A stretch of DNA of 52,573 nucleotides, from NCBI GenBank assembly GCA_021299695.1, contig JAJTEK010000032.1, forward strand, positions 1-52,573. Direction: 5' to 3'. Origin of the DNA: Pirellula sp. (lineage in GTDB: Bacteria > Planctomycetota > Planctomycetia > Pirellulales > Pirellulaceae). The notes below the pieces were generated by a model that saw only the letters and a list, made by a program, of their open reading frames with translations, was not told where the DNA came from and searched no databases. Shown in pieces: positions 4,507 to 18,926 of this stretch. The translations under genes were made by a program, and so were the position numbers. The number at the start of each line of letters is the position of its first letter. Within the stretch, counting starts at the first letter, position 1.

Positions 4507-5391
4507 TCAAAAAAGCTTCGAGCCACTCGTCGGCCAAAACGTCGAGTGAACCCCATCGAGGAACATGTTCAATACAATGTCGACGGCCAGGATCATCACG
4601 AAACTCTCCACGAAAGCCGATGTCGCTGCTCGCCCCACACCCTCAGCACCAGCCTGGCAATGAAACCCGCGATAACAACTGACAATCGCAATGATCGCCC
4701 CAAAAAACACACTCTTGAATATCCCTGTGAAAAAATCAAACCCTCCGACAAAGTCCCGGCTGTTCTTCAAGTACTGCGCATGGTCGATCCCAAAAACGAT
4801 CACACTGAAAAAGTACCCTCCAACAATCCCCATAAAGTCTGCCATGATCGTCAATGCCGGTATCAATAACACACAGGCCAAAAATCGAGGTACCACCAAG
4901 TAATGGATCGGATTGGCTCCCATCGCAACCAACGCGTCGATCTGCTCGGTCACCCGCATCGTACCTATCACCGCTGCCATCGCACTGCCAACCCGACCCG
5001 CTAACATCGTCGCCGCCAAAACCGGTCCTAACTCCCGTACCAACGACATCGTAATGACCGCACCTAACTTCGACTCCAATCCCATCGTCTTGAACTGATG
5101 GTAACTCTGCAAAGCAAGGACCATCCCAATGAATGTTCCGGTCAATGCCACCACCGGTAAACTCAAAACCCCCACCGAATATAGATTCGGCATCAACGTT
5201 CCACTCCGGGGCCTCGAAGTTACCATCCACATCAACATCCGCCACGAAAACAAAGATATGTCCCCCAAGGTGTTGATCCCCTGGATCGTGACACCCCCCC
5301 AAGCATTGGCCACCTTGCCAAAACTTTGACTCATTCGACCCGCAAGCGAATCCCGCGATGTTTTCCGAGTTGTTCCCATATCGCGTTGCAT
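4507..5391 (-). CDS. mlaE: Mla-family ABC transporter permease
   Basis: First gene of the lipid-transport operon, 294 residues. A polar N-terminus of about 65 residues precedes five to six hydrophobic segments. The hallmark coupling loop RVTEQIDALVAMGANP is present, with TFIGMVLALQSYHQF before it and GYFFSVIVFGID after it, as in the MlaE/DUF140 family. MlaE dimers sit in the inner membrane with MlaF below and an MCE ring above. The promoter should lie in the 427-base divergent region shared with the DUF1592 gene. Confidence 0.9.
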   Translation of the reverse strand: MQRDMGTTRKTSRDSLAGRMSQSFGKVANAWGGVTIQGINTLGDISLFSWRMLMWMVTSRPRSGTLMPNLYSVGVLSLPVVALTGTFIGMVLALQSYHQFKTMGLESKLGAVITMSLVRELGPVLAATMLAGRVGSAMAAVIGTMRVTEQIDALVAMGANPIHYLVVPRFLACVLLIPALTIMADFMGIVGGYFFSVIVFGIDHAQYLKNSRDFVGGFDFFTGIFKSVFFGAIIAIVSCYRGFHCQAGAEGVGRAATSAFVESFVMILAVDIVLNMFLDGVHSTFWPTSGSKLF

Positions 5392-11340: not shown

Positions 11341-12678
11341 CTAGTCGCTTTTACAGGGCGCATAGTACTCGATCATCCGCTCGATCGCCTGTCGGCAAAC
11401 GATACAAAATTCGAAGGGTTCGAGTCCATCGCCCATCGCACAGGACCTCTGCGGACGGTACATCCCAGTTCGCAGATAACCGCCCCCCTCGAATGCTCCA
11501 ACCACCGAAGCCTGCCCTTGGATCTGACCAGAAAAATCCTTGGGCGTCGGCAATGGAACTCCCTGGCTCAACAAGGACCTCCATTTGAGCTTCTCACGAT
11601 CCAACTCCCGTGTGATATTCGGCTCGACCGGCTCGACTCCCTCAGGATAGATATCGCTGTAAGTCACCGCACCAATGTATTCGTCGGCTAGGTAGGCTAA
11701 CGAGTGTGCGAATTCATGCAAAAAAACCGCTTCGCTCCGTGGATCGTCCACCGTTGTGACACAGTAGTCCAAACAGATAGCCCCCCCACCGTATCTCTTT
11801 GAGTTGACCAACACGACGATGGTATCATAAGGAACCTGGGCCGCGTACCGCTTGAGCGCATGACCATCCTCGGTCAACAGATAACGATCGATCCCCAAAC
11901 TGTTGAACGAAGCGTTCAAGGTACTGTTGCGGTATACTCGTTTATCCGGCTCGTCGACACCCGACTCGTAGGAATCGCGAAACACACCAACGACATTCAT
12001 CCTAGCTCGGTGCTTCCTAAAGGGCTCATGCTCGAACATGAACCGAGTCATCCGCTCCGCATCGGCATGAAACTTCTCCTGCTCACTTGCTGTGTACCCT
12101 TCAGCCAAAAAAACCAGATCCAATCGATCTTTAGGCTCTCCGGTCTTGTGCAACTCGATCACCGCCCCACGTTGATCCGCCGATTCGCGAAGAATGCCTC
12201 GATCCGACGTCTTGATTTCTTCACTCCAAAGCGCAACCCAACGGTTGTCCTTAAGTCGCTCGAGAATCTCGATGCGAAACCTCGCTTTGGGTTTGGGGAT
12301 TCGTACCGAGATCGGAAACGATCGCCACTTGCCCTGGGCCGCAGGAGGAGTCGTCGCATACTCGCTCATTAGCGTATCGAAACCGTACGAATAGATCAGC
12401 TTATCGCTTGCCTGATCGTATACCCGGACGGCATTTTTACCGTAAGAGAACGGAAAAACCAGTTGCTTGCGAGGCCCCGGCCAACTCGACTCCTGCACCA
12501 CCGGCCCCTGTACCACTTTCTTCTCAAACTTGTTTCCGAAGAGAAAGAACTCAAAACGCAACGCCTGATCTTGAAAATACGTATCGAAGTCGACTTGCTC
12601 CTGGGCCTGCAAGGCACAGCAGGTCAGAGCCGAGCAGATGGCGAACACCGATGAGAGTATTTTTATCCTAAATTGCAT
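11341..12678 (-). CDS. Secreted M64-type (IgA peptidase family) metalloprotease
   Basis: A signal peptide (MQFRIKILSSVFAICSALTC, cleaved near ALQAQE) precedes a 445-residue protein. A beta-rich N-terminal region (about 30-175) is followed by the peptidase_M64 domain that starts at RLDLVFLAEGYTASEQEKF. The zinc site HEFAHSLAYLADEY is at about 321-334 (His321, Glu322, His325), with the LADEY extension typical of M64. Several Cys near the C-terminus (SCAMGD, CIVCRQ) fit a secreted disulphide-containing fold. ATG 12678 starts the signal peptide cleanly; an in-frame upstream start at 12717 would put 13 polar residues before it. It converges with the kinase gene, 15 bases between stops. Confidence 0.88.
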   Translation of the reverse strand: MQFRIKILSSVFAICSALTCCALQAQEQVDFDTYFQDQALRFEFFLFGNKFEKKVVQGPVVQESSWPGPRKQLVFPFSYGKNAVRVYDQASDKLIYSYGFDTLMSEYATTPPAAQGKWRSFPISVRIPKPKARFRIEILERLKDNRWVALWSEEIKTSDRGILRESADQRGAVIELHKTGEPKDRLDLVFLAEGYTASEQEKFHADAERMTRFMFEHEPFRKHRARMNVVGVFRDSYESGVDEPDKRVYRNSTLNASFNSLGIDRYLLTEDGHALKRYAAQVPYDTIVVLVNSKRYGGGAICLDYCVTTVDDPRSEAVFLHEFAHSLAYLADEYIGAVTYSDIYPEGVEPVEPNITRELDREKLKWRSLLSQGVPLPTPKDFSGQIQGQASVVGAFEGGGYLRTGMYRPQRSCAMGDGLEPFEFCIVCRQAIERMIEYYAPCKSD

Positions 12679-12794
12679 TCGCGTCTGTTTTCTATTCCTC
12701 GAAGACCAAGCCAACATCGATGCGACACACCCAACATTCTAGCGACTCTCAGCGCGATCCCATCTCCCCCTCCAGCTCTTTCTTCCCCCTCTCT

Positions 12795-12917
12795 GTGCCC
12801 TCTGTGCCTCTGTGTTTCTCTTCTTCTTTCTTCTCCTCTCCGTGTCCTCTGTGCCTCTGTGTTTCTCTTCTTCTTTCTTCTCCTCTCCGTGTCCTCTGTG
12901 CCTCTGTGTTTCAAAAC
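12795..12917. repeat. 47-bp tandem repeat of the CACAGAGG family
   Basis: GTGCCTCTGTGTTT recurs at 12804, 12851 and 12898, exactly 47 bases apart, with TCTTCTTCTTTCTTC and CCTCTCCGTG between copies. About two and a half units are present. The last copy continues into TTCAAAACCC, the form seen in the hairpins at 13.5-14.0 kb, and ends 20 bases before the GxxExxY stop codon. The strand is almost pure pyrimidine apart from isolated G. Confidence 0.9.
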
Positions 12918-12937
12918 CCTGCATTTCCCAGAGTCCA

Positions 12938-13315
12938 TTAGTACCCATGGATCACCCTCCGGACCCCATCGGCCAGTTTTACCTCATGAAAATTGATCAG
13001 CAGTCCCAACCTCATCTTCAGCAAGCGCAGATGAGACAATACTTGAGCTTCATCTACAGGATGGAGTACCGACTTGGCCTTCAATTCCACGACTATAGAT
13101 TCATTGACAATCAGATCGGCCCGGAAACCGCATTCAAGTCTGATATCGTCGTAAACCAGTGGAACCGGATGCTCCTTGATGACCCGAAAACCACGCTTGT
13201 TGAGCTCATAAGCCAAACAAACTCGGTAGGCAGATTCCAGTAGACCTGGTCCCAAGCGTCGATGCACTTCGATGGCAGCTCCGATGATCGAGTGGCTCAG
13301 TTCGTTCAGCTCCAT
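12938..13315 (-). CDS. GxxExxY family protein, PD-(D/E)XK nuclease-like
   Basis: The 125-residue product has the family signature GLLESAY at 24-30, preceded by IIGAAIEVHRRLGPG. Downstream, FRADLIV (Asp67) and VELKA (Glu77, Lys79) fit a D-x(9)-ExK core like that of PD-(D/E)XK nucleases, and LGLLINF is also typical. The family is small, often multi-copy, and of unproven function. ATG 13315 has AAAGGA nearby; a GTG at 13339 would start inside the repeat. The gene lies alone between inverted copies of the CACAGAGG repeat, opposite in orientation to nothing else nearby and with no partner gene in the island. Confidence 0.85.
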   Translation of the reverse strand: MELNELSHSIIGAAIEVHRRLGPGLLESAYRVCLAYELNKRGFRVIKEHPVPLVYDDIRLECGFRADLIVNESIVVELKAKSVLHPVDEAQVLSHLRLLKMRLGLLINFHEVKLADGVRRVIHGY

Positions 13316-13516
13316 GGACGAGTTCCTTTTTTGAAGCACAGAGGCAGAGGAAACCGCAGCATTTCCCTATTGGAGTCTCCCGCCAACCCTACGAGTCCAA
13401 TCCGGCATGGGCAACCCCCCTTCTGGTCTTTCCCCCCTTTCTATCCCCTCCCTCTTCTTCTTTCCTCCCCTCTCCGTGCCCTCTCTCTTCTTCTTTCCCC
13501 TCCTCTCCGTGCTCTC

Positions 13517-13559
13517 TGTGCCTCTGTGTTTCAAAACCTTCTTAAAACACAGAGGAACA
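13517..13559. repeat. CACAGAGG palindrome, copy 1
   Basis: Left arm TGTGCCTCTGTGTTT (13517-13531) pairs with the right arm 13545-13559; one mismatch (A for C at 13556) interrupts the stem. The loop is CAAAACCTTCTTA. Confidence 0.8.
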
Positions 13560-13729
13560 AAGTCCACAGAGTTTCCTACAAGGGCCTTTACCCAAACGCC
13601 GAGAATCCATTCCGGTTTGGGGTGCCCTTTCTGTATCTTTCCCCCTATCTCCCCCTCTCTAATTCCCTCCCTCTATCTCCCCCTCCCCATCCCCTCCCTC
13701 TGCTTCTTTCCTCCCCTCTCCGTGCTCTC

Positions 13730-13770
13730 TGTGCCTCTGTGTTTCAAAACCCTTAAAACACAGAGGCACA
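13730..13770. repeat. CACAGAGG palindrome, copy 2
   Basis: Left arm TGTGCCTCTGTGTTT (13730-13744) and right arm AAACACAGAGGCACA (13756-13770) are perfectly complementary over 15 bases around an 11-base loop. No T-run follows on either strand, so it does not look like a simple terminator. Confidence 0.88.
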
Positions 13771-13940
13771 AAGTCCACAGAGTTTCCTACAAGAGCCTTT
13801 ACCCAAACCCCGAGAATCCATTCCGGTTTGGGGTGCCCTTTCTGTATCTTTTCCCCTATCTCCCCCTCTCTAATTCCCTCCCTCTATAACCCCTCCCTAA
13901 TCCCCTCCCTCTGCTTCTTTCCTCCCCTCTCCGTGCCCTC

Positions 13941-13981
13941 TGTGCCTCTGTGTTTCAAAACTCTTAAAACACAGAGGCACA
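13941..13981. repeat. CACAGAGG palindrome, copy 3
   Basis: The same 15-base perfect stem as copy 2 (13941-13955 with 13967-13981) and an 11-base loop that differs by one base. The following sequence (AAAAGGCTCACC) departs from the array, so this is the array edge. Confidence 0.88.
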
Positions 13982-14073
13982 AAAAGGCTCACCTCGCGAA
14001 AAGTCGCAAAACTTTACAACCAAGACGGGCTACCCGCATCCCCTTTTCGAACCGACGACTGGAAGGCCAACGT

Positions 14074-17000
14074 CTACCTACTGAGAATCGATACCATCCT
14101 GGGTCGGTCCCGTTCTAAACGGGTCGTATCGACCGATAAGCCCAACGAGACTCCCAGCTGCCGATAGAACTCAGCGAGCTGTTCGCTCCAAGCCCCTCGA
14201 ACAACATCCACAGGAGTCTCTCTACGATCATTTTTGCAATCCAATGCAGCGCCATGCGCCAGGAGCAATTCAACAATCTCCGCATGACACATGAAGGCGG
14301 CCAAATGCAATGCAGTATTCCCATCCTCATTGGTTACATTGACGTCCGCTCCCTTTTCAAGCAGCTCACGGACCAATTCCAATTGCCCCCACAGGGCCGC
14401 TTGGGCTAGGGGTGTGGCCCCGCCTGGCAATCGCTCGTTGATCTTGCTAGGATCGCCAAGCACTCTGCGTATCGTTCCACTCGGGCTATGGGGTTGATCG
14501 ATCTTCTCCTGCAACGCCAACGCAGACGCTCGGTCTAGGGCAGAATAAAAAAGGAAGTCGTTGCTGATAAAACCACTTGGTACTTGAACTTGCAAGAAGT
14601 GCATTCCAGGTTCCGGGAGAATTTCAAGTCTTACCACAACCCCATCGCCCGGCTGATCATCGACGGACCCTGCAACGCGCTTGCCATCGACGAATACCCA
14701 AGCGTCGTTGCCAAAGTAACGACCGCTTAGCCGCAACGTTTTGTCCTCGGAGGTCGCTATCGGAAAAACCTGCCGACCTCGTTGCTGCTCGATACTTCCC
14801 GATGTCCATAACTCAGGCTGGGGGTGATCCGCAGTGGCCTCAGAACCCATTCTCGCGGTCAAGGTAAATACCAACTTACCCTGCTCAGCCAAACTCAAGA
14901 GCTCCTCGGTATCGGTCCCTTGCGATCCGTCCTCAGTGCCGAACCGAATCCCCCCCTGGGTTTTCGAATCCCCAAAAAACTCCAGTTCGCATGAACTCTG
15001 GCTATCGAGCCGGACCCCACGACCTCGAAGCTCTATCGTCCCTTGCCTGGAAGCTTCGACCAACGCACGCATCAGGTTCCCAGTTGCTTCCAATCTGGCG
15101 GTTTGGCGATTGACCGTCACTTGCCTAGCAAACGCTCCCGGGAATCCGGTGCTACCCTCGAGCACCATCTCCCAAACTGGATCGAACCTAGGACGCCCAC
15201 CCCATGACATCTGCCAAATACTTCGCTCCGGCGCTCCGTCCTCGATGATCCGCTTGAAGAAATCGAAGTCGATGATATTCAATCGGCCTTGAGGTAAAAT
15301 CAGCCAACGATCGTAAGCTCCTCGCCATGTGGGTGCGTCCATTCCCGTTCCAGGTGTGTTCGTACTGACCAAGTGAGGCAAGCGATGGCAATCCCCACAC
15401 ACATTCGGCTTGGGCTTACTCGGGTCCAAATCCCCATCGACGTGAAAAAGCTTAAAACCCTGCGTCGCTTTTTTCGAAAGCTGATTGTCAAAAGCCCGCC
15501 GAGGAGCAGGAGGATAAGGCACGTTGAGCAGAAACCTAGCCATCGCGTCGCGCTCCTGGGCGCTGAGTCGTCCGGCTTTACCTTCGTCGTTTTTCGTTTC
15601 CTCTCCAACCCGAGCCATCGTAGATGCCAAACCTCCATCGATCAAATGACGGGTCGTCGACTCGGGTGAATCGATCGCACTGTTGGGTTTCACACCGCGC
15701 TGAATGCTCGCACTGTGAATGCCACCATAAGGATCCCCGGGGATACCGTCCCAATGAAACGGGGCGGTGTCTCTCAATCCTCGCGCGGGCATCGTCGAGC
15801 GAGGCATGATCTGGTTGCCACCGGTGACAATCGGTGTCGTCAGAACCCACAGAAGCTGATCCGTATGACCGTCTGGATGGCAACTCGCACACGAAAAAGT
15901 ACCGGTCGTCGATGCCTTGGCCGTCGTAAAGGCGATCCGACCATTCTTGACCACCCCATCGGTAGGATCCTCCAACTGGATCGATTGCGTGCATCTTGGG
16001 TCGCTGAAATCCTCGATGTTGATACGCTCGACGGTGTTCGAAGCGGCGCTGAGCACCCAAGCTGTCACAGGTTGATTGTCGCGATACTCGATGCTGATCC
16101 CTTGTGGCACAGCCCCAACCGAACAGCGTCCTAGCAATTGCCCAGTACTCGCTTCAAAAATAGAAAAGCTGTCCGAACCAGCAGCAGTCAAATAAAGAAA
16201 ACGGTCGTCCAAGCTTACCTCAACTGCAAACGGGGTCGCCTGGGCCGTCTGCTGGGTCGGATCCTCAGGAGGTAGCGGCTCAAGTTCCATCCAATCGACG
16301 CTAGGATTCGATGCAGGTGCACTGTTGGCTCCCTTGGTCCATTCGACGGTGGTGACTCGATTCAAGAACGGTCGATTGCCAAGTTCCGCAAGCCCATGCT
16401 TTTTGGTCCCAGCCTTCCCATTGACGTCATTCCTCGCATCGGTCTGCGCCACAAACACGCGTCCTTGGGAGTTGACCGCGATTCCATATTGCAAGGTCCC
16501 GAGCGACGATACCGTCTCGAGCAATCGATCGCTTTCGACATCAAAAACAAACAAATCCCGATCCGGAACCTTGGGGTTCTTCACAATATCGACGACGTGC
16601 CCGAGCGACAAAACGTTGTTGTTTTGGATCGAATGATCCCATGCATCAAAGGTGACCAAATTGCCGTCGATGTCCTCTTTCTTGCCACCCGATAGCTGCG
16701 TTTGATTATTCGATTCAAACGGAATGACATAGAGCCGTCCGTCGCGAACAGCCATCCCTCGCGGGTCTTGCGCCGGGATCCTCAATCGCTTGGTGATCGT
16801 GCGTGAGGTCGTATCGATCACCGCAATTTGATTCTCGCTCGAAAGAGAAACATAAGCCTTCTGGTTGCTGGCAAAAACGATTCCGACCGGCTCGTCGAAT
16901 CGGGTTGCCCGAGTCATTGGGTCGATGTCTTGAATCGTATGGACGATCTGAAAAAACGTCTGGCTCGCCGGTTGAATATCGACAATCGATACCGAGTCCG

Positions 17001-18898: not shown

Positions 18899-18926
18899 TT
18901 TCTGTGTCCTCTGTGCCTCTGTGTTT
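18899..18926. repeat. Isolated CACAGAGG-family repeat
   Basis: TTTCTGTGTCCTCTGTGCC followed by TCTGTGTTTCC repeats the core of the 47-bp unit at 12.8 kb, 5 kb from the GxxExxY gene, in the same orientation. Confidence 0.7.

Follow-up and report, generated by a model that had tools for sequence, protein, structure and literature searches.

The GxxExxY gene in a 52,573-nucleotide stretch of Pirellula sp. DNA (contig JAJTEK010000032.1, positions 1 to 52,573; hereafter the window) belongs to a family whose genes form, together with the inverted arrays of short repeats beside them, units of about 450 bp whose ends are marked by these arrays. We consider it probable that gene and arrays constitute one compact cassette, mobile or horizontally replaced, with the protein acting on its own array to spread the units. 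Directly observed are the bracketing, the boundaries in one pair of paralogues, presence, absence and replacement at one site, decay, covariation and purifying selection. A preliminary description, drawn from the letters of the window, had pictured a nuclease-fold gene in a repeat-bounded unit accompanied by gene-less forms. Recurrence of the bracketing, unit ends that are array ends and a site found filled, empty and replaced agree with this picture, whereas the bracket of the window gene turned out to be atypical.

Bracketing was assessed on two sets of loci. The phylum set comprises 40 GxxExxY loci from 31 families of the window's phylum, hand-picked for family spread from the best-scoring matches listed; the named set comprises, across many phyla, the best 80 of 566 loci found with the pattern [EKR]VHRxLGPGL. 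Because of this best-match and pattern-based picking both sets favour the LL clade. One phylum locus (L100) and 10 named loci were left out for short flanks, leaving 39 and 70. Without recourse to any motif, the strongest inverted repeat linking the 350-bp flanks of a locus was compared with that of shifted places in the same DNA (558 and 1,161 controls). It lies above the 95th percentile of the shifted places at 26/39 phylum and 54/70 named loci, and above the 99th at 24 and 43 respectively. The commonest array type is an (A)ACC head followed by the heptamer CRCRRAG at steps of 8-10 nt, the exact repeats varying by locus. When at least two units per side, inverted, are required, 24/39 phylum and 37/70 named loci are bracketed (61/109), against 0/656 and 0/961 shifted places (0/1,617). 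L072 and L184 are the same locus, present in both sets, so that 60 of 108 distinct loci are bracketed. They belong to Planctomycetota, Chloroflexota, Bacteroidota, Acidobacteriota, Verrucomicrobiota and Proteobacteria. The expectation that inverted repeats surround most GxxExxY genes is borne out as regards the bracketing, but not as regards an identical repeat sequence. The purine strand points inward in 60 of the 61 bracketed loci; the opposite orientation is found, also or only, in 7/70 named loci, and alone in L161, the exception. Genes of the PIN nucleases, a second family of small dispersed nucleases, score in 1/26 cases when given the same test and are bracketed in none, compared with 23/26 and 15 for GxxExxY (too-short loci left out of this comparison: 4/30 PIN, 4/30 GxxExxY and 3/30 for the PF05635 family considered below).

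Upstream arrays end a median of 33 nt from where the protein domain begins, and intact copies are under purifying selection, with ratios of nonsynonymous to synonymous substitution rates (dN/dS) of 0.05-0.19 in 10 comparisons (for the window gene, 0.19 against its orthologue L224 and 0.11 against its orthologue L228). Both features would suit a host gene for defence, or one akin to toxin-antitoxin genes, with arrays that serve as autoregulatory operators or as translation signals, as would a fold that we take to be common to GxxExxY and defence nucleases. An operator is not expected to recur inverted downstream, as in most bracketed loci, to occur in many gene-less copies or to coincide with the ends of a unit; moreover, the sole PADLOC match is a weak one to Cas4 (E 0.016). 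We regard this explanation as extremely improbable.

The ends of the unit were read from two copies at unrelated sites of one genome. The alignment of L289, a copy with four stops, to L069 covers 454 bp at 72%; it runs from the ACC head on one side to GGTGAAA of the array on the other and does not extend further. In this pair unit ends are array ends. The L069 site, beside a gene whose product starts like what we take to be a resistance-nodulation-division (RND) efflux pump, was followed in 23 genomes of one family. Seven (G217, G358, G049, G370, G122, G258 and G366) have an LL-clade GxxExxY unit with GCAGAG arrays, the copy of G366 having two stops, and G106 has a remnant of it. A PGHL-type GxxExxY unit with CACAGATT arrays stands there in G382, G334, G168 and G328, is broken in G153 and G292 and is reduced to a 13-residue remnant in G070, while G308 keeps a CACAGATT array pair with no recognisable gene. 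In G239 the GxxExxY unit is replaced by a PF05635 four-helix-bundle gene (L328 2520-2906) with its own arrays (the genes of G239, G382, G334 and G217 at this site were checked against Pfam). The site is empty in G316, with 5 bp between the flanks and no target site duplication recognised there by eye, and holds a 33-bp stub with a head remnant in G195. The other genomes gave no match (G267), partial matches (G248, G275) or no clear readout (G088). Filled and empty versions, which the preliminary description had proposed to compare in close relatives, thus exist at this site beside decayed and replaced ones, and vertical descent alone can hardly account for such unit-for-unit replacement.

Decay is not confined to this site: among the matches listed for ten genomes, 38/90 carry stops or cover fewer than 85 of 116 positions, some being two pieces of one broken gene. 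Stops and partial copies form a birth-and-decay pattern. Two further repeats were seen near GxxExxY copies. In G088, 645 bp recur inverted at 99.8% identity (L276 1-645 and L287 1-645) beside two copies, perhaps as an insertion sequence. A separate repeat of about 30 bp, on one side of a GxxExxY unit (L293, about 5277-5306), recurs many times in several genomes of the same family.

To compare arrays with protein clades we used 196 unique loci (137 LL, 43 F and 16 other), after removal of loci with short flanks and of copies identical in DNA or protein. The 137 GxGLL-type genes have CRCRRAG in 119 cases, CRCRRAT in none and no recognised array in 18; for the 43 GxGF genes the corresponding numbers are 5, 16 and 22 (p=5e-17 against the GxGLL type). 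Among the 16 loci with other motifs, PGHL genes have CRCRRAT in three cases and no array in two. More clades with more units (ACAGGATRA, CACGAAANA, CCACGAAGGG) appear on reading, uncounted. In 152 of the 196 loci array similarity rises with protein similarity between genomes (Mantel r 0.30, reached by 0/500 permutations), and loci of one clade from different genomes resemble each other more in their arrays (0.170, 5,729 pairs) than loci of different clades within a genome do (0.111, 17 pairs). Taken by itself, the within-genome trend lacks significance (46 pairs, r 0.24, p 0.10). Judged from these comparisons, the array motif follows the protein clade, not the host.

This result bears on the main rival explanation, in which the arrays come first, as independent intergenic repeats that serve as landing or recombination sites and carry small selfish or cargo genes without being acted on by them. 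PF05635, the family named for the 23S rRNA intervening sequence protein, gives it substance. Its genes (L399-L418, L192-L221) lie dispersed, frequently as multi-copy genes, between inverted arrays built of other short units (AGTTGTT, AGTGGTT, CAGCGGT, AGGCGGC, CTGAGTTG), their flank repeats exceeding the 95th percentile of the controls in 19/20 cases and the 99th in 17/20, and one of them occupies the L069 site in G239. Because this unrelated family has the same architecture, the genes could be passengers of primary arrays, which counts against the cassette as we propose it. Many arrays also lack a gene, the genome of the window having 82 three-unit array matches for 3 GxxExxY genes. But CRCRRAG arrays were found at only 1/27 PF05635 loci, so that motif and protein are not freely exchanged, and the motif differs by protein clade irrespective of host. 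We find an arrays-first origin unlikely. Whichever component is primary, the architecture common to PF05635 and GxxExxY units points to a broader class.

The two arms of a unit were also compared letter by letter. Among LL-clade loci, 59 have three units in each arm; there the variable unit letters of one arm agree with those of the other at 0.84, versus 0.53 between loci (n=531), best at unit positions 2 (0.93) and 5 (0.90). Spacer letters agree at 0.46, versus 0.39 between unrelated loci (n=190). This contrast between well-matched unit letters and nearly unmatched spacers suggests that the heptamers are recognition sites iterated along the array, and not parts of a perfect hairpin or of a stem maintained for pairing. 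The same numbers weaken a model at the RNA level, in which the arrays pair as a transcript stem with the open reading frame (ORF) in the loop, are processed by RNase III and are maintained by selection on the stem, as in rRNA intervening sequences (IVSs): a selected stem should keep its spacers paired. The layout does resemble that described in PMC4990558 for the IVS, where an S23p ORF is combined with a 28-bp terminal stem, and units between adjacent genes could be co-transcribed. In the window, however, positions 12500-14200 gave no Rfam match near the gathering score (31 matches at E<=1, 30 of them to microRNA models). We hold the RNA model to be quite improbable.

One protein column stands out when residues are compared with unit letters (z 28.9 against 0.6 for the median column, 104 loci). 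Where helix 1 starts with Thr, unit position 5 is G in 57/57 loci; where it starts with Ser or Ala, that position is A in 35/44. On a tree built without the helix-1 columns the residue changes at least 15 times and the unit at least 14 times. Several points weigh against reading this as an established specificity residue: the column is the best among all columns and three unit positions, there are 9 exceptions, the window gene itself (helix-1 Ser with CACAGAG) breaks the trend, and supported branches hold 5 independent pairs, 3.8 going in the same direction and 0.0 in the opposite one (median p 0.125). As there are only these 5 pairs, the covariation is a lead and not a proof.

GxxExxY genes occur in 185/392 sampled genomes of the window's phylum, about half, and the family is also found in many other phyla. 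Intergenic repeats of the CACAGAGG/CGCAAAGG type are dispersed in many of the genomes that bear it, and in many genomes arrays far outnumber genes. Repeats common in genomes without the gene had been named as an observation that would speak against the unit. Mostly the reverse was found: the three-unit array pattern is present at least 5 times in 135/185 gene-bearing and 26/207 gene-free genomes (odds ratio 19). When genomes are compared within families, it falls to 4.8 (p=3.5e-5; 248/392 genomes, 29 families assigned by hand). The correlation is partly trivial because each gene brings its own arrays. Plasmids carry GxxExxY in 6/72,556 records. Carriage by phages was considered and rejected: the 49 pattern matches in viral_contigs contained 0 confirmed GxxExxY relatives, and phage records had 0.

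The window locus consists of the following features.

12938-13315, minus strand: GxxExxY gene, 125 aa, with a predicted Cas4/RecB-like PD-(D/E)XK fold and conserved E27, D67, E77-x-K79 and Q91.
12791-12916, plus strand: pyrimidine-strand array CTCYGTGYCCTCTGTGCCTCTGTGTTTC in three direct copies of 47 bp, of which the last ends with the gene-facing head TTTCAAAA.
13329-13536, no strand: gene-less palindromic element, heads outward, an inverted pair of purine arm TTTTGAAGCACAGAGG (13329-13349) and pyrimidine arm CTCTGTGCCTCTGTGTTTCAAAA (within 13505-13536).
13542-13749, no strand: second gene-less element of a 211-bp tandem run, arms 13542-13571 and 13718-13747.
13753-13960, no strand: third gene-less element, arms about 13753-13782 and 13929-13958.
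13964-13981, plus strand: partial fourth copy, head and first unit TTAAAACACAGAGGCACA, from the repeat-pair listing.
13505-13571, no strand: head-to-head hairpin at the junction of abutting gene-less elements, with similar ones at 13718-13782 and 13929-13981.
18909-18923, plus strand: single isolated array copy CTCTGTGCCTCTGTG, from a motif search of the window.

The two 16-mers described earlier beside the gene lie where they had been placed, CCTCTGTGTTTCAAAA at 12901-12916 (plus) and CCTCTGTGCTTCAAAA at 13329-13344 (minus), and the start codon is 13 bp, and the stop 21 bp, away from the nearer arm. The window holds 7 copies of the 16-mer at up to 2 mismatches (100 shuffles: mean 0.15, maximum 2). 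The gene-less hairpins at 13730-13770 and 13941-13981, described as perfect, are present but near-perfect (30 nt at 83% and 18 nt at 94%); they are two of the three head-to-head hairpins. The third (13505-13571), the three 47-bp direct copies and the 211-bp tandem periodicity are additions to that description. The tandem run spans 13329-13981, each unit being a gene-less palindrome of purine arm TTNAANCACAGAGG and pyrimidine arm CTCTGTGCCTCTGTGTTTCAAAA with heads outward, and the right-hand bracket of the gene is the left arm of the first of these palindromes (13329-13536). The bracket is thus of a rarer form in which the inner arms are head-in, with a complete gene-less palindrome on the right and three pyrimidine-arm copies on the left. 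In the planctomycete relatives L114, L115 and L117 the gene stands between two complete gene-less palindromic elements, and for this reason the head-in layout seems a habit of the lineage. Array copy number changes around the conserved gene site, since the near relatives L112 and L113 differ in it (the 47-bp threefold and the 211-bp tandem amplification). The best explanation is that the window copy is an old resident of the GxxExxY unit type, set in a field of gene-less array elements.

The genome of the window has 46 copies of CTCTGTGCCTCTGTG with at most 1 mismatch, against none of the reversed control. CACAGAGG itself was not supported as the general partner of the family: the other two GxxExxY genes of the genome have look-alike inverted arrays of a different sequence, for which reason the search moved away from CACAGAGG as such, and the motif differs between GxxExxY clades.

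The window protein matches TIGR04256 with 137.3 bits (cut-off 35) and PF13366 with 131.5 bits (cut-off 22), which supports its earlier identification as a 125-aa GxxExxY protein. PF13366 is its only Pfam match at E<=0.001, and no transposase family of Pfam or NCBIfam, HUH Y1 transposases included, matched it. Asp67, Glu77 and Lys79 had been correctly named in the 125-aa numbering (66, 76 and 78 in alignments without Met). In a structure model the protein has the fold and the D...ExK...Q catalytic residues of RecB/Cas4-like PD-(D/E)XK nucleases; it is modelled as a minimal Cas4/RecB-like fold with a putative nuclease role. Solved structures searched by sequence gave 0 matches at E<=1. Cas4 uses C-terminal cysteines for its Fe-S cluster; the window protein has two Cys, at 33 and 62, and none in its C-terminal half. 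We know of no proven role for GxxExxY proteins. The PGHL-type GxxExxY protein of G382 (L332 2540-2932) has a sub-cut-off match to PF08722, the N-terminal domain of TnsA-like endonucleases (20.1 bits, cut-off 26.5). Among 5.39 million papers the term GxxExxY occurs in two, PMC8934634 and PMC12085832, and PF13366 in one; in PMC8934634 a gene is called GxxExxY domain where another program placed cas4.

A cassette of this kind might work as follows. The unit of about 450 bp runs from an (A)ACC head through spaced heptamers, in many cases three of them (with CRCRRAG as the main-clade form), and one ORF to an inverted copy of the array. The protein would bind the iterated heptamers of its own array and, through its nuclease fold, may cut or resect there; recombination or repair could then copy the unit to new intergenic sites, and gene-less array pairs might be copied in trans. 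More tentatively, although as a serious possibility, we propose a class of minimal mobile elements across many phyla, in which inverted arrays of short units surround one ORF in at least two unrelated protein versions, the Cas4-like GxxExxY nuclease and the PF05635 four-helix bundle, each reading its own array by a code (helix-1 Thr with CRCNGAG, Ser/Ala with CRCNAAG) and spreading full and gene-less copies.

Several observations weigh against a mobile cassette. All 3 GxxExxY genes of the window's genome stand at the same sites in the near relatives G392 and G393, where no empty site for the window gene was seen. The variation in site predicted for gene-less arrays did not appear either: 6 sites were examined, and in G392 the array is kept at all 3 interpretable ones (L002, L003 and L015). 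In G393 L015 keeps its array, L002 appears shorter by about 80 bp, and L003 falls on more than one contig; among the other sites, L014 matched on one side only, L017 was split 7 kb apart and L006 had no clear alignment. Neither excision nor a transposition intermediate nor a target duplication came to light, and turnover was followed at the L069 site only. CRCRRAG arrays are missing from 25/185 gene-bearing genomes and occur at least 10 times in 20/207 gene-free ones; these array-rich genomes may have lost the gene, may be incomplete or may be counter-examples. The best Foldseek match has E 2.7e-3, none reaching 0.001, and purifying selection as strong as that measured would be compatible with a host function as well.

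If protein and repeat are partners, the GxxExxY family gains a testable substrate and the dispersed repeats are its gene-less forms; the covariation of residue and base makes this partnership directly testable. A lone Cas4/RecB-like nuclease could then anchor a selfish element, possibly a relative of the Cas4 part in CRISPR adaptation. Should the class of minimal elements be real, a large share of unexplained intergenic repeats would be explained and GxxExxY given a function.

Among known systems, the preliminary description had likened the locus to repetitive extragenic palindromic (REP) sequences and their REP-associated tyrosine transposases (RAYTs). As a functional analogy this is supported, a gene lying beside inverted copies of its own repeat, which is also dispersed without the gene. 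As in REP/REPIN-RAYT systems (REPINs being REP doublets), there are short intergenic inverted pairs, many gene-less copies and a chromosomal nuclease-type gene beside its cognate repeat; part of the RAYT features compared here is general background. Unlike them, GxxExxY has a predicted PD-(D/E)XK fold, while RAYT is an HUH Y1 transposase; the arrays are 7-nt units at 8-10-nt steps with non-matching spacers, while REP is a single 20-40-bp palindrome; and the GxxExxY gene can be multi-copy and decays. The GxxExxY unit would be a functional analogue of REP-RAYT built from an unrelated protein and repeat. The diversity of REPINs and RAYTs is attributed to long coevolution in PMC3116915.

The Coxiella IVS, described in PMC4990558 as a compact unit of 428 nt with inverted repeats around one ORF, has the same general plan. 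GxxExxY units differ from it in lying between protein genes and not in 23S rRNA helices (the window gene stands between long protein-coding frames and the L069 site between conserved coding flanks) and in carrying a nuclease-fold gene; the PF05635 array units are closer kin of the IVS. From Cas4/RecB-like nucleases the GxxExxY protein differs by its length of about 125 aa, the lack of Cys in its C-terminal half and a sequence link to Cas4 at E 0.016 only. Cyanobacterial short tandemly repeated repetitive (STRR) sequences are, like our arrays, tandem heptamers in intergenic DNA; the parts of the STRR literature available showed no link to a bracketed gene, and a wider search, subscription journals and preprints lying outside it, found none between GxxExxY and a repeat. 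Insertion sequences and miniature inverted-repeat transposable elements (MITEs) share inverted ends, one ORF, gene-less derivatives and an empty site with the GxxExxY units, which have no known transposase, no recognised target duplication and iterated arrays for ends. Insertion sequences in the widest sense would absorb GxxExxY units if transposition were shown. As matters stand, we rate the GxxExxY-array unit as a new kind, neither REP-RAYT, whose defining protein feature is lacking, nor IVS.
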